64,000 bases of DNA from Halocatena marina (GTDB lineage: Archaea > Halobacteriota > Halobacteria > Halobacteriales > Haloarculaceae), in the NCBI RefSeq assembly GCF_023276375.1, contig NZ_JALLPK010000003.1:62001-126000 (forward strand). The letters run 5' to 3'. Below are positions 42,066 through 62,210 of the stretch, in pieces (within the stretch, counting starts at the first letter, position 1; each line of letters starts with the position of its first letter). The notes below the pieces were generated by a model, which saw only the letters and a list, made by a program, of their open reading frames with translations, did not search any database and was not told the DNA's origin. Made by a program: the position numbers and the translations under genes.

Positions 42066-42605
42066 TTATCCAGAGAAATTGCTGTACGAAACCGCTTTCT
42101 GATCGACGATGGTCTGGCTCTCGGGGACCTTTCCGTCGGGCGGCATACTGCCTTCGGCGGGGCCGCCAGGCTCGCCGACGACGATCCGACCAACCATGCC
42201 GAGGCTCTTGTGAGGGATACAGAAGTAGTCGTACGTCCCTGTCGTCTTGAATGTATGCTCGAAGGTTGCTCCCTGCTTGTTCAGAATTCCGCTGTCCCAT
42301 GATTTGGCGCCATCAGGAATGCGGGTGACTGATGCACCTCCAGTTCCCTTTTTGTATGCTGTCGCAGAGTGGCTTCCGTTGTCGATCTCGAACGTAATTG
42401 TTTCACCAGATTCGACGAAGAGTCCAATCGGATCGAAGTAATAGGTGCTCCCTTCCGTGACCATCAGAACCGTGTTCGTGGCCTCGTTCGATGGTGTACC
42501 TGTTTCCTCACTTGCGTCAGGATTCGAACTACTACACCCAGCGAATCCGGTTAGCCAAGCGGTTGCAGCAAAGCCAGTGGTCTTCAGTATCTGTCGACGC
42601 TCCAT
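42066..42605 (-). CDS. Halocyanin-like copper protein (Tat lipoprotein)
   Basis: A 179-residue extracellular blue-copper domain protein. The N-terminus has a twin-arginine signal (MERRQILKTTGFAATAW) and lipobox GFAGC, so it is exported folded and lipid-anchored. The cupredoxin domain carries His in NGSHSATAY and the C-terminal Cys-His-Met ligand loop YFCIPHKSLGMVG. ATG 42605 is chosen because the Tat signal begins there; the upstream extension to 42695 is unneeded. It probably shuttles electrons, and it lies upstream of the divergent bd oxidase. Confidence 0.9.
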   Translation of the reverse strand: MERRQILKTTGFAATAWLTGFAGCSSSNPDASEETGTPSNEATNTVLMVTEGSTYYFDPIGLFVESGETITFEIDNGSHSATAYKKGTGGASVTRIPDGAKSWDSGILNKQGATFEHTFKTTGTYDYFCIPHKSLGMVGRIVVGEPGGPAEGSMPPDGKVPESQTIVDQKAVSYSNFSG

Positions 42606-42838
42606 AACCAAGTTTTGGGGACTCAGTGATAGACCACTTTGGCGGAATCCCGGTCGATGGGAATCCGCCATCAGATTGACTGTCACTCCGTCCAATCATC
42701 TACTGATGGCAACGTCAGTCACCTACGCTCGTCGGTTCTGGCGTCCAAGTAAATCCGAACGACGATGCTCATCAGGTCCGCGATGGAAACCCCTCATTTC
42801 AACCTCACAGGTGGGGGGTACCGGAGGGTTGTACGGCG

Positions 42839-44272
42839 GTGGTGTCGATGGTTGATCCGGTCATCGCGAGCCGACTCCAGTTTGCGATCACCACCATCGT
42901 CCACATCATCTTCCCCGTGATGAGCATGGGGCTTGCGCCCTTCCTCATCTACTTCACGTGGAAAGAGATCCGGACGGAACGACCGCTCTACGAGCAACTG
43001 CGCCGGTTCTGGACGCGGATCTTCGCGGTGAGTTTTGTCGTCGGTACAGTTACCGGACTGATCCTCGAGTTCGAATTTGGGACGAACTTCGCGGCTTTTT
43101 CGACAACCGCCGGAGAGCTCTTCGGCGGCCCGCTCGCTCTTGAAGGGATGATGGCGTTCATGCTTGAAGCGACGTTCCTCGGAATCTTCGTCTTCGGTCG
43201 TGACCGTGTCTCTGACCGACTTTACTTCCTGTCAAGTATTGCTGTCGGCCTCGGCACGTGGCTCTCGGCTGTCTGGATCCTCATCGCAAACTCTTGGATG
43301 CAGACCCCTCGCGGGTTCGAAATCGTCGTCGAAAATGGCAACCGCGTCGTGAAACTTACTGACCCACTGGCGGCGTACTTCAATCCGCGATTCTCCTATA
43401 TGTTCGTCCACATGCAGAATTCAGCTGTCGAGTCGGTTGCACTCTTCATGGCTGGCGTCGCCGCTTACTATGTCTTCCGGCATCATGTCTGGGGCTACTC
43501 CATCGAACACATCAGTTTCTGGGAGAAAACGCTCAAGATCGCGCTTGTCGCGTTAATCATCACAGCGCCACTCCAAGTCCTGCACGGGGACGCCTACGCT
43601 CGACACGTCTACGAAACCCAGCCCCAGAAGTTCGCCGCGATGGAAGCCGTCTGGGAAACCGATTCGTACGTCCCCGAATACATCGTCGCATTCCCGACAA
43701 ATGTGAATGATCTGCTGAACCCCCAGACCAAGGATCTCTTCGGGATCGGTATTCCGGGTGGTGCCTCATGGCTCGCAAGCGGGGGTGAACCTCAGGCGAC
43801 GATACGCGGACTTGAATCGTTCTCGACGGAAGCCCCGCCAGTCGCAATCGTCTTCTGGGCGTTTCGCATCATGGTCGCGCTTGGGTTCTGGTTCATCCTG
43901 CTGGCGTTCTGGGGCACGTACCGCTGGTGGCGTGGGGAACTGTTCAAGGATGACCTCCTCCACAAAGCGTTAATGGGATCGTCACTCCTCGGGTTTGTCG
44001 CCGTCGAGGTCGGGTGGATCGTCACCGAGGTTGGCCGCCAGCCGTGGGTCATCCAGGGCGTCATGAAGACCGCAGACGGCGTGTCATCCGGCTTGACGAG
44101 TGGCGAAGCGACGTTCACCCTCCTCGGGTTCGTCACCGGCTATGCACTGCTGCTTGGACTGTACACCTACGTCGTCGGCCGCATCATCAGGGCAGGACCA
44201 CCTGCGGGTGACGACCTCGAGAGTACGTCCGAGCCACCATCAGCGGATCCGGAGGTGACCACAAGTGATTGA
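42839..44272 (+). CDS. cydA: Cytochrome bd oxidase subunit I
   Basis: A 477-residue membrane subunit I (nine-helix family) carrying hemes b558, b595 and d. Visible are the N-terminal RLQFAITTIVHIIFPVMSMG with the heme b595 His, LEGMMAFMLEATFLG with the conserved Glu, HMQNSAVES, the Q-loop region and the diagnostic GWIVTEVGRQPW. The Q-loop is short, as in CIO-type and archaeal enzymes. The start could be GTG/ATG 42839 or ATG 42848 (MVDPVIAS). It overlaps cydB by eight bases. A fragment of its 5' end lies inverted at 38755-38896. Confidence 0.92.
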   Translation: MVSMVDPVIASRLQFAITTIVHIIFPVMSMGLAPFLIYFTWKEIRTERPLYEQLRRFWTRIFAVSFVVGTVTGLILEFEFGTNFAAFSTTAGELFGGPLALEGMMAFMLEATFLGIFVFGRDRVSDRLYFLSSIAVGLGTWLSAVWILIANSWMQTPRGFEIVVENGNRVVKLTDPLAAYFNPRFSYMFVHMQNSAVESVALFMAGVAAYYVFRHHVWGYSIEHISFWEKTLKIALVALIITAPLQVLHGDAYARHVYETQPQKFAAMEAVWETDSYVPEYIVAFPTNVNDLLNPQTKDLFGIGIPGGASWLASGGEPQATIRGLESFSTEAPPVAIVFWAFRIMVALGFWFILLAFWGTYRWWRGELFKDDLLHKALMGSSLLGFVAVEVGWIVTEVGRQPWVIQGVMKTADGVSSGLTSGEATFTLLGFVTGYALLLGLYTYVVGRIIRAGPPAGDDLESTSEPPSADPEVTTSD

Positions 44273-45269
44273 GATCGGATTGCTGGCCACAGATCCGCTG
44301 TTCGGACTGCCGCTCCCAGAGCTCTGGTTTGCACTCCTGTTTTTCATCTTCGGGATGTTTCTCTTTCTCGATGGCTTCGACTTCGGCGTCGGGATTCTCT
44401 TCGCCACCCGTGACGACGAGCACGAGAAAGAGCAACTCCTCGCAGCTGTGGGCCCGTTCTGGGATGGCAATGAGGTCTGGCTCGTCGTCTTCGGTGGAGC
44501 ACTGTTCGCCGCCTTCCCCGCCGTGTATGCGAATCTGTTCAGCCGATATTATCTGTTGATGTTTGCGATCCTCGCCGCGTTAGGGCTGCGGGGACTCGCG
44601 CCGGAGATGTACGAAGAACGTGACGACAACCAATGGCAGCGGTTCTGGGGCTACGCGTTCATCGTTGGGAGCACGACGACGCCGTTTCTACTCGGCGTGT
44701 TCGTGATGAACTGGCTCCTCGGGTTGTCCACACTCGTTACAGTACAAGGACTACTCGCTGGGGTAACGGTCGTCGCACTGACTGTCGTCGACGGCGCGGC
44801 ATTCCTCGGCTTGAAGACGCGGGGATCACTCCGAGATGACGCACAGACGTACGGTATCCGAGCTGCGATCAGCTATCTTGTCCTTACGGGCCTCACGCTG
44901 GGGCTCGTCTACGTGACCACCCCAAGCCTGCGTGCCTCATTCCAGTCACCAGTCGTAGTCGTCCTCGTCCTCGTGACCGGGAGCCTGACAGCCGGCTACA
45001 TCGTCGCGTCTCGCAACCAACGATATTATGTAGCCTTCGCGACCGCGGCCGGACTCGTCTTTGCGCTCGTCGCACTGCTCGCGGCACTCATGTTCCCGCT
45101 TATCGATCGAGCGGCTGAGCTGACAATTCGCGATGCCATCATATCGACGCTGCCGCTCAATCTTATGACGATCATGGCGAGTGTGCTACTCCCGCTGGTG
45201 CTCGTCTATTTCGCTATTCTCTATTCCGCGTTCAGCGGTCCAATCGAGGGCGAGGAAACCTATGGATGA
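44265..45269 (+). CDS. cydB: Cytochrome bd oxidase subunit II
   Basis: A 334-residue partner subunit with eight or so helices: LPELWFALLFFIFGMFLFLDGFDFGVG (shown split: LPELWFALLFF, FLDGFDFGVG) and GPFWDGNEVWLVVFGGALFAAFP are the CydB hallmarks. It starts at a GTG overlapping cydA, implying coupled translation, and ends overlapping a 29-codon ORF. The oxidase reduces oxygen with quinol at high affinity, suited to microaerobic brine. Confidence 0.92.
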   Translation: MIEIGLLATDPLFGLPLPELWFALLFFIFGMFLFLDGFDFGVGILFATRDDEHEKEQLLAAVGPFWDGNEVWLVVFGGALFAAFPAVYANLFSRYYLLMFAILAALGLRGLAPEMYEERDDNQWQRFWGYAFIVGSTTTPFLLGVFVMNWLLGLSTLVTVQGLLAGVTVVALTVVDGAAFLGLKTRGSLRDDAQTYGIRAAISYLVLTGLTLGLVYVTTPSLRASFQSPVVVVLVLVTGSLTAGYIVASRNQRYYVAFATAAGLVFALVALLAALMFPLIDRAAELTIRDAIISTLPLNLMTIMASVLLPLVLVYFAILYSAFSGPIEGEETYG

Positions 45270-45351
45270 GCGACAGACAATTCCGGAATCCACACCACGG
45301 TCAGGTTCGACCACTCTCAAGGATAATCAGCAAACAACCTCACTCAATTAG
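45262..45351 (+). CDS. 29-residue ORF overlapping cydB
   Basis: ATG 45262 overlaps the last eight bases of cydB; the ORF reads MDERQTIPESTPRSGS and ends TSLN, six bases before the ATG of the next small gene. It is polar with no membrane helix, so it is not an obvious CydX. The tight overlap on both sides suggests either translated coupling or a leader. Low confidence as a stable protein. Confidence 0.35.
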   Translation: MDERQTIPESTPRSGSTTLKDNQQTTSLN

Positions 45352-45357
45352 GCACGA

Positions 45358-45573
45358 ATGACTACTCAAGCTCAATCCGGGATGAAACCGCATCTTGCAT
45401 CGCGAATCGTCGTAACGTGGGTCGAACTCACACTCGGTGGACTCGTCGGAGGCATTCTTGGTACGTCACTTGGAGGTCCTCCTGGACTCATCATCTATTT
45501 CATTACAACCCTCGTGTCAGTCGGTATCGTCTTCTACAACGTCAATCAGCTCATCCAACAATGGATTGAATGA
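45358..45573 (+). CDS. Small membrane protein in the cyd operon
   Basis: A 71-residue protein with two hydrophobic stretches (about 17-40, GGLVGGILGTSLGG; and 44-62, LIIYFITTLVSVGIVFY) and a polar C-terminus QLIQQWIE. It follows cydB by 88 bases in a compact run, as do small accessory subunits (CydX/CydS) in bacteria, though there is no sequence match I can claim. Candidate assembly or accessory subunit. Confidence 0.6.
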   Translation: MTTQAQSGMKPHLASRIVVTWVELTLGGLVGGILGTSLGGPPGLIIYFITTLVSVGIVFYNVNQLIQQWIE

Positions 45574-58527: not shown

Positions 58528-61116
58528 ATGAAGACTGGGGAGATGGAGCGATCGTATCTCAAAGCTAATTGTAACACGCTGCTAATCGCCGATGATCAGT
58601 CCGTGGTTATCGATCGTGCTCAAGCCGAGATATGCACTCTCTGTGGTCGGGAGCTACCGGAATCGCCTATCGGAGAGACAGACAAATCCTCGTTTTGTTC
58701 AATCGGGTGTCAAACTGTCTATGATACAATCGGAGGTGGTAAAACGGTGAGCGAACCCGACGAAGCGCGAAGTGAAGAAGACAGGCCCGAGAATGGTAGC
58801 TACCGACGCAGCAACGATACAGATTCACGTGAAGACGTCACTCGTACGTTCCTCCGTATTGACGGTATGCACAGTATCACATGTGAATCATTTTTGGAAG
58901 CGGTTGCTGAGGGATGTGACGGCGTCACCGATGCTGAGGCGAGTTACGTCACGGAAACGATACGGATCGACTACGATCCGGGCTCGATTTCACAAGCCAC
59001 GCTCTGTGATGCACTGAACATAGCCGGTTATACAGCAATTCCTCGCGAGGACGCACCGATTGACTCGAACGTCGCAGCCGAACAGGGTGAACGTCGGCTT
59101 GAGAGTGCATTGGGATATCGCTACGCCGCCGGTGTCATCTTTGGCTCCTTTTTGCTACTTCCGTACATTGTATTACTGTATCCAGCTCACCTCTCGTCAC
59201 TGCTCGGAGAGGGAGCCCTCCAGTCATTTGCGGGAGGTGCACAGTTAGATGGCGGAACTGGAGTCCTGATTTTACCACTCTATCTCGTACTGACGGGCGT
59301 CATCCTCTTTTTCACTGGGTTACCGCTGCTTCGTGGTGCGTACGTCAGTCTGAAGATGCGAGCGCCAAACGCAGAACTTCTCACCACACTTACCGTGATG
59401 GGTGCCTATCTGTACAGCACGGTTGCCGTCCTCCTCGGCCGAACTGACGTGTATTTCGATCTCACTATCGTGATTGCCGCGATTGTGGTGGCTGCCATCT
59501 TCTATGAATCACTGGTCAAACAGCGGGCGATGGATCTTCTGACGAACCTCACTCTCTCACAAATCGACGAGGCCAGACGATACGAACCGGACGGGACGAC
59601 AAAAATTGTTGCTGTCGATGATCTTCAGGCTAGCGATCGAATTCTCGTCCGAGAAGGGGAGCGAATTCCGGTCGACGGGATACTGACCACTGGAGAGTGT
59701 ACGGTTGAGGAGGCGGTCATCACTGGTGAGTCGCTTCCCATCGAAAAGCAAGGCGGTGACGATATTGTCGGTGGATCGATCGTCACTGCAGACGCAGCAG
59801 TGGTCTCGGTTGCTGACCGCGCTACCAGCAGTATCGAACAGCTCATTACGACTGTCTGGAATCTCCAGAGCGCCGACCACGGGGCACAACGACAGGCGAA
59901 TCAGTTCGCTGCACGCAGTATCCCGATCATCGTGGCAGTAGCTGTTATCATCGGTGGGACACGACTGGCACTCGATGGAAATCCAGTTACATCCCTTCTA
60001 GTCGCGCTGACGGTGCTCTTGGTGGCATCACCGTGGGCATTCGGTCTTGCGACACCACTCTCGGTCGCTACTAGTATCGAAGAAGCGATGCGGCGGGGAA
60101 TCGTCGTATTCGATGAAACCATCTTCGAACGGTTACGGGATGTCGATGTCATCATCTTCGATAAAACCGGGACGCTGACGACCGGCCAGATGAGTGTGAT
60201 CGAAGCGGATGCTCCTGCGGAGCTGTTGGAGGCAGCGGCGATGCTCGAGCGGCGGGCCTCACACCCCGCTGCGGACGCGATCGTGGCCGCATTTGCTCAG
60301 GAAAATGAGATCGCTGAAACAACCCTGCCCGATGGTAGTGGCTCTGAGGACCCAGACGATGTGGAAGGAGAAGTCGACGGAGTACGGGAGTTCAGTAGCC
60401 ATTCGACGGGCGTTGAGGGAGTCGTCAATGGCACAGAGACACTCGTCGGTCATCCCGATCTCTTCGAGATACGTGGCTGGTCGGTTAGTGACGAGCTTCT
60501 GACCCGGGCAGAGAGTGCGCGTGGCTTCGGTCGACTTCCAGTCCTCGTTGGGCGTGACGGGAATGCAGAAGGGTTCATCGTTGTCGGTGACGAGCCACGG
60601 GAGCGGTGGGACGAAACCATTACTCGCCTCAGCGAGCAAGGCATCGAAATCGTCGTCCTGACGGGTGACGATGAAGACGCCGCTAGGTTCTTCGGTCGGC
60701 ATCCACACGTCGATTACGTGTTTGCGGGCGTGCCTCCCGCCGGGAAGACGGCAACGGTTCGTCGATTACAGTCAAACCGGTCCGTCACGATGGTTGGCGA
60801 TGGAACAAACGATGCACCGGCACTTGCCCAAGCTGATCTCGGCATTTCACTGGGCAGTGGGACAGCGCTCGCGTCCGATGCAGCCGATATTGCGATTGTG
60901 GATGATGATCTCACAGCCGTCGAAACGGCGTTCGATCTCGCTCGTGCAGCCCGTCAGCGAATCAGACAGAATAATGTGCTGGCACTCCTTTATAATGGCA
61001 TCACGATTCCGTTAGCAGCTGTGAATCTCCTGAATCCCCTCCTCGCGATGGCGGCGGTGATCGTGAGTAGCACGCTTCTCGCAGCAAACTCAGTTCGAGC
61101 ACTACTTGACTCCTAA
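58528..61116 (+). CDS. P1B-type heavy-metal ATPase with non-canonical metal sites
   Basis: An 862-residue transporter. N-terminal zinc/metal finger (C36xxC39, C57xxxC61), then an HMA-like domain (about 105-172) whose loop is GMHSITCE, with Ser replacing the first Cys of CxxC. Membrane part: eight or so helices; the helix-6 motif is ASPWAFGLATP (500-510), so the usual CPC/CPx is SPW with no Cys. The soluble machinery is complete: TGES (399-402), DKTGT with phosphorylated D545, TGDDEDAA and GDGTNDAP. Acid dipeptides are common and it lacks a His-rich loop. It should hydrolyse ATP to move a metal, but the cargo must be bound differently from classic Cu/Zn pumps. Confidence 0.9.
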   Translation: MKTGEMERSYLKANCNTLLIADDQSVVIDRAQAEICTLCGRELPESPIGETDKSSFCSIGCQTVYDTIGGGKTVSEPDEARSEEDRPENGSYRRSNDTDSREDVTRTFLRIDGMHSITCESFLEAVAEGCDGVTDAEASYVTETIRIDYDPGSISQATLCDALNIAGYTAIPREDAPIDSNVAAEQGERRLESALGYRYAAGVIFGSFLLLPYIVLLYPAHLSSLLGEGALQSFAGGAQLDGGTGVLILPLYLVLTGVILFFTGLPLLRGAYVSLKMRAPNAELLTTLTVMGAYLYSTVAVLLGRTDVYFDLTIVIAAIVVAAIFYESLVKQRAMDLLTNLTLSQIDEARRYEPDGTTKIVAVDDLQASDRILVREGERIPVDGILTTGECTVEEAVITGESLPIEKQGGDDIVGGSIVTADAAVVSVADRATSSIEQLITTVWNLQSADHGAQRQANQFAARSIPIIVAVAVIIGGTRLALDGNPVTSLLVALTVLLVASPWAFGLATPLSVATSIEEAMRRGIVVFDETIFERLRDVDVIIFDKTGTLTTGQMSVIEADAPAELLEAAAMLERRASHPAADAIVAAFAQENEIAETTLPDGSGSEDPDDVEGEVDGVREFSSHSTGVEGVVNGTETLVGHPDLFEIRGWSVSDELLTRAESARGFGRLPVLVGRDGNAEGFIVVGDEPRERWDETITRLSEQGIEIVVLTGDDEDAARFFGRHPHVDYVFAGVPPAGKTATVRRLQSNRSVTMVGDGTNDAPALAQADLGISLGSGTALASDAADIAIVDDDLTAVETAFDLARAARQRIRQNNVLALLYNGITIPLAAVNLLNPLLAMAAVIVSSTLLAANSVRALLDS

Positions 61117-61127
61117 CGTGCTGTGCG

Positions 61128-62210
61128 ATGCGAGTTGGCCAGCTCAATCGGATGGAACGATCGCCGTCGATCCCTGAAGACGCATTCTGGGAATTACAGA
61201 CGTATCTCGGGCTGGGAGAAGAGCTCTGTGCCAACGAAGGGGCACGAAGTTTCATCACCGAGTCAACGCGAGAGAAGACACCACTTGGTCATATTCATCG
61301 TCACCACATCCGCCAACAGTTATCCATCGAGACGATTCGAGACATGTACCACGAGGCGATGCAACGCCTGCTCGCAGAAGCGACCAGCCGGTCAGAGTAC
61401 TTCGGGGAAGCAGCGGTGGCGATCGATACGACCGCAGCCGATTCCTTCACGGGTGATCGAGATGGGCACGAGGACGAAATCATCGGCACGAAAGAGGATG
61501 ACGACGAGTACGCCTACCAGTGGGCAACCATCCAGGTCGTCGGCTGGGGGCCACGGGTGATGCTCGACGTCCGTCCTGTTCGCAAAGGCGACACGCTCGT
61601 CGAGATCGTTACGGACCTGCTCGAATCAGCCGAGGAACTCATCCGCATCGATCGCGTCCTCATGGATCGGGAGTTCGACAGCCAACACGTTCTCGAAGCA
61701 ATCGTCGAGCGTAGGCACGACTATCTCGTGCCGAAGCGCAAACGGACCAGTGAGAAGGCCGTCGCCAGTCGCATGGAACAGCACGATGTTGAGACAGCAG
61801 TGAATGAACGAGGGCTTCATCTCGGGAACAACGAGTGGCACGAGACTCAACTACTCTACGTGCCGAAACGGAATTTTGACGGGGAGATCGAGGAAGGCCA
61901 TGACCGGCACGTCGTGTTCATGTCCTCAGAACCGATTCTCGGCTCGGTCGAGGCTCATATTGGACGATACAGTGATCGCCAGGAGATCGAAGCTGGCTAC
62001 AAACAGATCAAACGCTTCATGGCGAAAACGACCTCCACAGACTTTGTACTGCGATTTTTCTATTTTGCGTTCGCGTGTCTGCTCTACTCGCTGTGGCGGC
62101 TGATCGACCACTTGGTGCAGGTGTGCTTCACTGATTCGTTTACCGATGAACCGTGGGTGACGATGCACGACGTGCTCACATCGCTGAAGAAGCGCACTGG
62201 AGTTGGGTGA
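61128..62210 (+). CDS. DDE transposase (IS4-like)
   Basis: A 360-residue intact DDE transposase with D100 in AVAIDTTAADS, D180 in RVLMDREFDS and E288 in RQEIEAGYKQIK, the Y(2)R(3)E(6)K-like block of IS4 enzymes. The tail LRFFYFAFACLLYSLWRLID is also typical. An alternative start at 61152 (MERSPS) is possible. It begins 11 bases after the ATPase stop. I found no terminal inverted repeats or target duplication, so the element ends are unresolved. Confidence 0.85.
   Translation: MRVGQLNRMERSPSIPEDAFWELQTYLGLGEELCANEGARSFITESTREKTPLGHIHRHHIRQQLSIETIRDMYHEAMQRLLAEATSRSEYFGEAAVAIDTTAADSFTGDRDGHEDEIIGTKEDDDEYAYQWATIQVVGWGPRVMLDVRPVRKGDTLVEIVTDLLESAEELIRIDRVLMDREFDSQHVLEAIVERRHDYLVPKRKRTSEKAVASRMEQHDVETAVNERGLHLGNNEWHETQLLYVPKRNFDGEIEEGHDRHVVFMSSEPILGSVEAHIGRYSDRQEIEAGYKQIKRFMAKTTSTDFVLRFFYFAFACLLYSLWRLIDHLVQVCFTDSFTDEPWVTMHDVLTSLKKRTGVG

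Follow-up and report, generated by a model that had tools for sequence, protein, structure and literature searches.

A haloarchaeal branch of P1B ATPases in which tryptophan occupies the place of a copper-site cysteine

Introduction

The cargo of a P1B ATPase is predicted chiefly from its M4 motif, and the motifs named in the literature examined (CPC, CPH, SPC, TPC, CPS, APC) each contain at least one cysteine. What, then, would be the function of a P1B ATPase in which this motif reads Ser-Pro-Trp? Such a protein is encoded in the window analysed here, a stretch of 64,000 nucleotides from Halocatena marina that belongs to contig C3 (427 kb) of a genome of 5.3 Mb; this copy of the gene is plasmid-borne. 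A preliminary description of the locus suggested a hard metal (Mn, Co, Fe or Mg) as cargo, or else a regulatory role. No description of an xPW or CPW motif was found in a literature search that included haloarchaeal papers.

Results

The ATPase of the window

The open reading frame encodes a protein of 862 residues with the P1B fold (Table 1), matched by the Pfam families E1-E2_ATPase, Hydrolase and HMA. The features of the P-type superfamily (DKTGT, TGES, GDGxND and the HAD-type phosphorylation fold) are present, and in the window protein TGES, DKTGT, SHP, TGD and GDGTND are all intact. So are the P1B features, namely MA/MB topology, the HP locus, the HMA domain and a passing score in the general P1B model TIGR01525 (413 bits, cut-off 346). 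In helix M4 (TM6) the translation reads LVASPWAFGLATP, which corresponds to S501-P502-W503. The replacement of CPC by SPW and of CxxC by SxxC in the HMA loop, reported in the preliminary description, was thus confirmed, as was its broader view of a P1B ATPase that has lost the canonical soft-metal site and kept the catalytic machinery. A ligand-free AlphaFold2 model shows a confident P1B fold (mean pLDDT 85, pTM 0.82; pLDDT 96 around the SPW motif) in which the P1B helices are present. Its best PDB fold matches are the Cu P1B ATPases 7si6, 4bbj and 3rfu, with ATP7B and LpCopA the closest.

Table 1. Coordinates of the features discussed. Positions are those of the window unless a locus is named.
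Feature	Position (nt)	Strand	Remarks
xPW-type P1B ATPase gene	58528..61116	+	862 aa; start ATG 58528, in-frame TTG 58525 an alternative start
Four-Cys module C36, C39, C57, C61 (CTLC...FCSIGC)	58633..58710	+	N-terminal; as in CcoI-like relatives, whose extra Cys 58 is Ser here
HMA loop GMHSITCES, residues 113-121	58864..58890	+	SxxC for CxxC; C119 kept, position 116 Ser
A282	59371..59373	+	M1 copper-entry Met position (AfCopA M158); mostly Thr in clade, Met in 21/21 CPC relatives
C391	59698..59700	+	A-domain; 56/56 in xPW clade, Gly/Ala in nearly all CPC relatives
S501-P502-W503	60028..60036	+	replaces CPC in M4 (TM6); alignment, local pLDDT 96
DKTGT	60160..60174	+	phosphorylation motif, intact; 56/56 in clade
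Y822-N823	60991..60996	+	M5; sole retained canonical Cu-site motif (alignment)
V844	61057..61059	+	M6 copper-ligand Met position (AfCopA M711); Met in 21/21 CPC relatives, 0/56 xPW
IS transposase gene (DDE_Tnp_1)	61128-62210		starts 11 bp past ATPase stop codon
Plastocyanin-like copper protein	42066-42695	-	13-16 kb upstream of ATPase, with cydAB
cydA	42839-44272	+	13-16 kb upstream of ATPase
cydB	44265-45269	+	13-16 kb upstream of ATPase
Small membrane ORF	about 45358-45573	+	beside cydB
CPC paralogue, L148	8577-10991		window genome
ATPase remnant, L149	6728-7825		G000 contig C3, outside the window; RPC for CPC
c1, L086	7085-8293	+	plasmid-borne xPW locus
c1, L007	5564-6796	-	plasmid-borne xPW locus
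c1, L191	8668-9882	-	plasmid-borne xPW locus

Within the P1B family the protein fits none of the groups compared. Among the features of P1B-1 Cu(I) pumps it has YN in M5 and lacks CPC, MxxSS in M6 and the M1 entry Met, and its score in the Cu subfamily model TIGR01511 lies below the cut-off (358.6 against 397 bits). P1B-2 Zn/Cd pumps carry CPC and a pair of M5 Lys and M6 Asp; here there is no CPC and no Asp in M6, and the Cd subfamily model TIGR01512 gives 301 bits against a cut-off of 313.5. The CoaT-type P1B-4 pumps have SPC where this protein has SPW, and their HEGxT is absent from M6 throughout the xPW proteins. The CopA2/CcoI type combines an additional N-terminal metal site, HMA CxxC, CPC and an N/M/S site, of which the N-terminal module and N823 are present while CxxC, CPC and the M6 Met are missing. 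As the tests for all these groups failed, xPW proteins are best filed as an unassigned P1B variant.

A single clade with a single origin of the tryptophan

Homologues were collected by searching the genomes of the window's family and GTDB contigs. Close homologues are of two kinds: those in which Ser, Cys, Ala, Asn or Gly precedes Pro-Trp (xPW), and those with strict CPC and the same N-terminal architecture. The preliminary description had proposed a phylogeny of haloarchaeal SPW ATPases. A tree of 77 non-redundant sequences (56 xPW and 21 CPC) was built from an alignment stripped of the trait columns. It unites the 56 xPW proteins in one haloarchaeal clade, with SH-aLRT support of 100, and leaves the 21 CPC sequences outside it. 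An earlier tree of 68 rows agrees, with the xPW clade nested inside CPC CcoI-like ATPases. The nearest relatives are haloarchaeal CcoI/CopA2-like pumps, CPC in 21/21. At position 503 the xPW relatives have Trp in 66/66 sequences of the first set and 56/56 of the non-redundant one, and the sister group has Cys in 22/22 and 21/21.

On the tree, one change each accounts for W503 and for the disappearance of Met at 282 (M1) and at 844 (M6), and about eight for that of the first Cys (501). Sequences and tree thus establish a single origin of Trp and a coordinated loss of ligands on one branch. Because Trp needs one change and first-Cys loss about eight, Trp most likely came first and the first Cys was lost later, repeatedly.

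The catalytic motifs DKTGT, HP, TGD and GDGTND are each found in 56/56 clade members and TGES in 54/56. Between relatives dN/dS is 0.14-0.35; for the window gene against its nearest relatives it is about 0.18, an approximate value since dS is about 1.8. The invariant motifs and these ratios indicate that xPW proteins are under selection. A copper pump in decay, by isolated loss under relaxed selection, would suit the plasmid-borne position of the window copy just upstream of an IS transposase gene, and a relative, L038, in which even the M4 Pro is lost (CLW). However, the window frame is open with all motifs and the same Trp recurs in 56/56 homologues spanning the class, which refutes decay for the clade and makes it extremely improbable here. 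The preliminary description would have given up its proposal if the closest relatives had CPC and the change were an isolated loss with relaxed selection; instead the nearest relatives share the Trp at the ratios above. A pseudogene was rejected on the same grounds: the clade, dN/dS and the open frame. The L038 copy (genome G015), without the normally invariant Pro, is near-identical to L037 of another genome, which reads CPW.

Residues lost, kept and gained

The Cu(I) ligands and site residues of AfCopA are M158 (M1 entry), C380, C382, Y682, N683, M711, S714 and S715, and Ala replacement of M4-6 residues abolishes its function (PMC9433437). M158, C380, C382, Y682/N683, M711, S714 and S715 align to window positions 282, 501, 503, 822/823, 844, 847 and 848, and CPC relatives keep each of them in 21/21. 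In the xPW clade CPC is found in 0/56. Position 501 is Ser in 38, Cys in 14, Ala in 2, Gly in 1 and Asn in 1 (n=56), so about a quarter of members are CPW with one Cys left. Position 282 is mostly Thr, Ala or Ser (entry Met in 0/56), position 844 mostly Val, Ala or Leu and position 848 mostly Gly or Ala; M6 of the window ATPase reads NPLLAMAAVIVSS. The M5 pair is retained (Y822 in 53/56, N823 in 55/56), as is E327, and D458 is retained in most members and is Asn in the window protein. Over the eight TM helices Met plus Cys fall from a mean of 9.3 in CPC relatives to 4.4 in xPW proteins, and helix MA methionines from 3.6 to 1.2, while MA gains invariant Y199 and F208.

The cytosolic cysteines C36, C39, C57, C61 and C119 are kept in at least 90% of xPW proteins, and A-domain C391 is newly invariant. 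Neither this Cys nor the three linked losses (M1 entry Met, M6 Met, most MA methionines) had been noticed in the preliminary description. The N-terminal Cys pairs had been taken for an addition; they derive instead from the CPC relatives, with the loss of two cysteines (C58 to Ser, C116 to Ser). C391 and the single retained HMA Cys, C119, might form an interdomain metal bridge or a disulphide.

Haloarchaeal CPC pumps of the CopA2/CcoI (FixI) type, such as the paralogue of the window genome, have the same order of four-Cys module, HMA domain and eight-helix core. They are 39-51% identical to xPW proteins and share YN, the entry residues (Glu and usually Asp) and the catalytic core. They differ in having CPC, the M1 entry Met, the M6 Met with its two serines and the MA methionines, all lost in xPW proteins, in an HMA CxxC that is mostly SxxC in the latter, and at position 391, where xPW proteins have the new invariant Cys. 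AfCopA, LpCopA and ATP7B (P1B-1; PDB 7r0g, 4bbj, 7si6) are the best relatives of solved structure by sequence and fold. None of their Cu(I)-path Met ligands is conserved in the xPW clade, nor is the second CPC Cys, and the first survives in CPW members only. In the APC pump CtpG the first motif Cys is likewise replaced, but CtpG retains the second Cys, exactly the one that xPW proteins lack; the role of this Cys was probed by mutation in the CtpG study (PMC9045314).

A hard-metal pump (Mn, Co, Fe, Mg) draws on the likeness of the Ser-Pro-x start to the SPC of CoaT-type P1B-4 pumps, and on genes for a NicO/RcnA-like protein (assigned by eye) and a CDF protein in some of the gene islands described below. 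P1B-4 transport, however, requires both the Cys of SPC and HEGxT in the last helix pair (PMC8880997), and xPW proteins have neither; they also retain the HMA domain and lie on a different branch, grouped by the tree with CcoI-like Cu pumps. When the 56 xPW sequences were aligned with the 21 CPC ones, no Asp, Glu or His was found to be gained and conserved in the membrane domain. D311, E327, Y822 and N823, the polar residues that are conserved, occur in xPW proteins and the CPC copper-type relatives alike. With no carboxylate or HEGxT ligand gained in M4-M6, the hard-metal cargo first proposed is unsupported and very improbable.

A further alternative is a pump that still moves Cu(I) or Ag(I), the ion being held by a Trp pi-cation contact and Tyr/Asn, with the remaining Cys in CPW members. 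In CusF a Trp (W44) does cap Cu(I)/Ag(I), alongside two Met and one His (PMC6235853), and Y822/N823 and E327 are kept in the xPW clade, whose plasmid copies adjoin genes for multicopper oxidase, plastocyanin-like proteins and a CPH copper ATPase. But xPW proteins lack the entry Met, the M6 Met and usually both Cys, and their MA methionines are thinned. CcoI with both CPC cysteines replaced shows no transport (PMC8475189), an argument against SPW members being ordinary Cu(I) pumps. A Trp-held copper pump is unlikely. Some residual soft-metal binding is possible in CPW members, since one Cys remains there.

Distribution and paralogues

Among 117 near-complete Natrialbaceae genomes, 88 were matched by a strict DNA pattern. 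The matches lie for the most part on large, chromosomal-looking contigs, and a few of them may still be chance. The first class-wide pattern scan (144 of 392 genomes) was discarded as an over-count, many of its matches reading PWVVAVAR, a different motif. Of 146 genomes in the window's own family, about 25 have xPW. Many of the copies found outside Natrialbaceae are plasmid-borne, including that on pNG600 of Haloarcula marismortui, and a plasmid of Halocatena salina is among the homologue matches (H17). A genome of the window's own species (G040) gave no xPW match, so the gene is accessory in that species. Beyond the Halobacteria, a scan of about 310 genomes from the rest of the phylum yielded one match, in an unrelated ORF.

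Ten Natrialbaceae genomes with SPW also contain separate CcoI-like paralogues, which have CPC wherever the motif was read, and the window genome has a CPC paralogue as well. Since the two kinds occur together in one genome, xPW is an additional paralogue and no replacement. Genome G123 (L089, L090, L091, L064) shows an unusual expansion, with at least three SPW and several CPC CcoI-like copies, of which two SPW and one CPC share a contig of about 212 kb. The contig of the window also carries a 5'-truncated remnant of a CcoI-like ATPase, which overlaps the end of a gene for haem-copper oxidase subunit I.

Gene neighbourhood

Chromosomal xPW copies of Natrialbaceae have no conserved neighbours. 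The plasmid islands contain, in varying combinations, genes for cytochrome bd, plastocyanin-like copper proteins, multicopper oxidase, a CPH (CopB-type) ATPase, DsbA/DsbB, CtaA, SCO/CcdA and haem-copper oxidase subunits. The block of plastocyanin-like gene, cydA, cydB and small membrane ORF in the window (42066..45573) recurs beside several other xPW ATPases. As chromosomal copies lack conserved neighbours, the respiratory and copper context may hold for plasmid copies only. The island around the window ATPase looks rearranged relative to other plasmids.

An unannotated haloarchaeal membrane protein of about 400 residues, here called c1, is encoded near the ATPase in 15 plasmid-type xPW loci, usually as the next gene in convergent orientation, and also occurs near oxidase genes. 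Two of its features are invariant: a motif like CTCGCCGP and, following a signal-like segment, Ala-His-Gly. It matched no Pfam family, a fold search returned nothing significant, and its AlphaFold model is poor (pLDDT 63). One further c1 shares a contig stretch with a CPC ATPase (L061). In the window genome c1 lies on contig C2, adjoining DsbA, peroxiredoxin and oxidase subunit I, the genes of this contig being named by eye and by analogy with an annotated Halocatena marina plasmid. c1 is possibly a partner or a copper-maturation factor.

The nearness of plasmid copies to oxidase-biogenesis genes would also suit a regulator or assembly ATPase that is catalytically active and transport-dead, its membrane site plugged by Trp. 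An ATP-driven change in the HMA and A-domains (C391, C119, the four-Cys module) would then sense metal or redox state, or help partners such as an oxidase. Every sulphur ligand of the transport path is lost in favour of hydrophobic or neutral residues, and the persistence of the cytosolic cysteines and the invariance of the new A-domain Cys agree with such a role. Yet the whole P-type catalytic core and YN are retained under purifying selection, and no dedicated partner is conserved beside chromosomal copies. We regard this role as rather unlikely.

Discussion

At the level of sequence, the analysis established intact catalytic motifs, purifying selection, the coexistence of CPC paralogues, and the presence of copper-protein and terminal-oxidase genes around plasmid copies. 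The xPW proteins are most likely a neofunctionalised P1B branch that probably still pumps, with a cargo other than a thiolate-bound soft metal. In full, our preferred reading is of an active P-type ATPase whose branch is specific to haloarchaea, has a single origin among CcoI/CopA2-type Cu(I) pumps, had its Cu(I) route dismantled and now pumps something else. This reading is held tentatively, with confidence a little short of even.

In the ancestor the Cu(I) route lined with sulphur was dismantled (M1 entry Met, second CPC Cys, M6 Met, MA methionines), and an invariant bulky Trp came to stand where the central Cys ligand had been. Most likely it was after this that the first Cys, by then dispensable, was lost repeatedly. 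The E1/E2 phosphorylation cycle presumably still runs and would move the cargo, no thiolate-bound soft metal, through a remodelled M4-M6 cavity. On plasmid islands the pump would probably serve extracytoplasmic maturation of copper proteins or oxidases, or copper-stress physiology. The conserved changes in MA, M1 and M4 (Y199, F208, T289, W503, S512) could equally seal the cavity as remodel it. It is possible, rather than probable, that the clade is a new haloarchaeal P1B subfamily which has wholly abandoned soft-metal transport and uses a Trp-based M4 site for pumping or gating some cargo that is not a metal, or is otherwise unprecedented.

A class-wide haloarchaeal subfamily in which M4 is usually SPW and entry and exit ligands were lost together shows a re-use of the P1B scaffold. 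Annotations of xPW genes as 'heavy metal translocating P-type ATPase' are unsafe, and the job of these proteins is probably mis-assigned. The xPW clade is a natural experiment on the role of the M4 cysteines, and CPC and SPW paralogues within one cell offer a tractable system for finding a new cargo. If the clade is indeed a new subfamily that does not move soft metals, it would contain the first P1B pump with neither thiol nor imidazole in the M4 motif.
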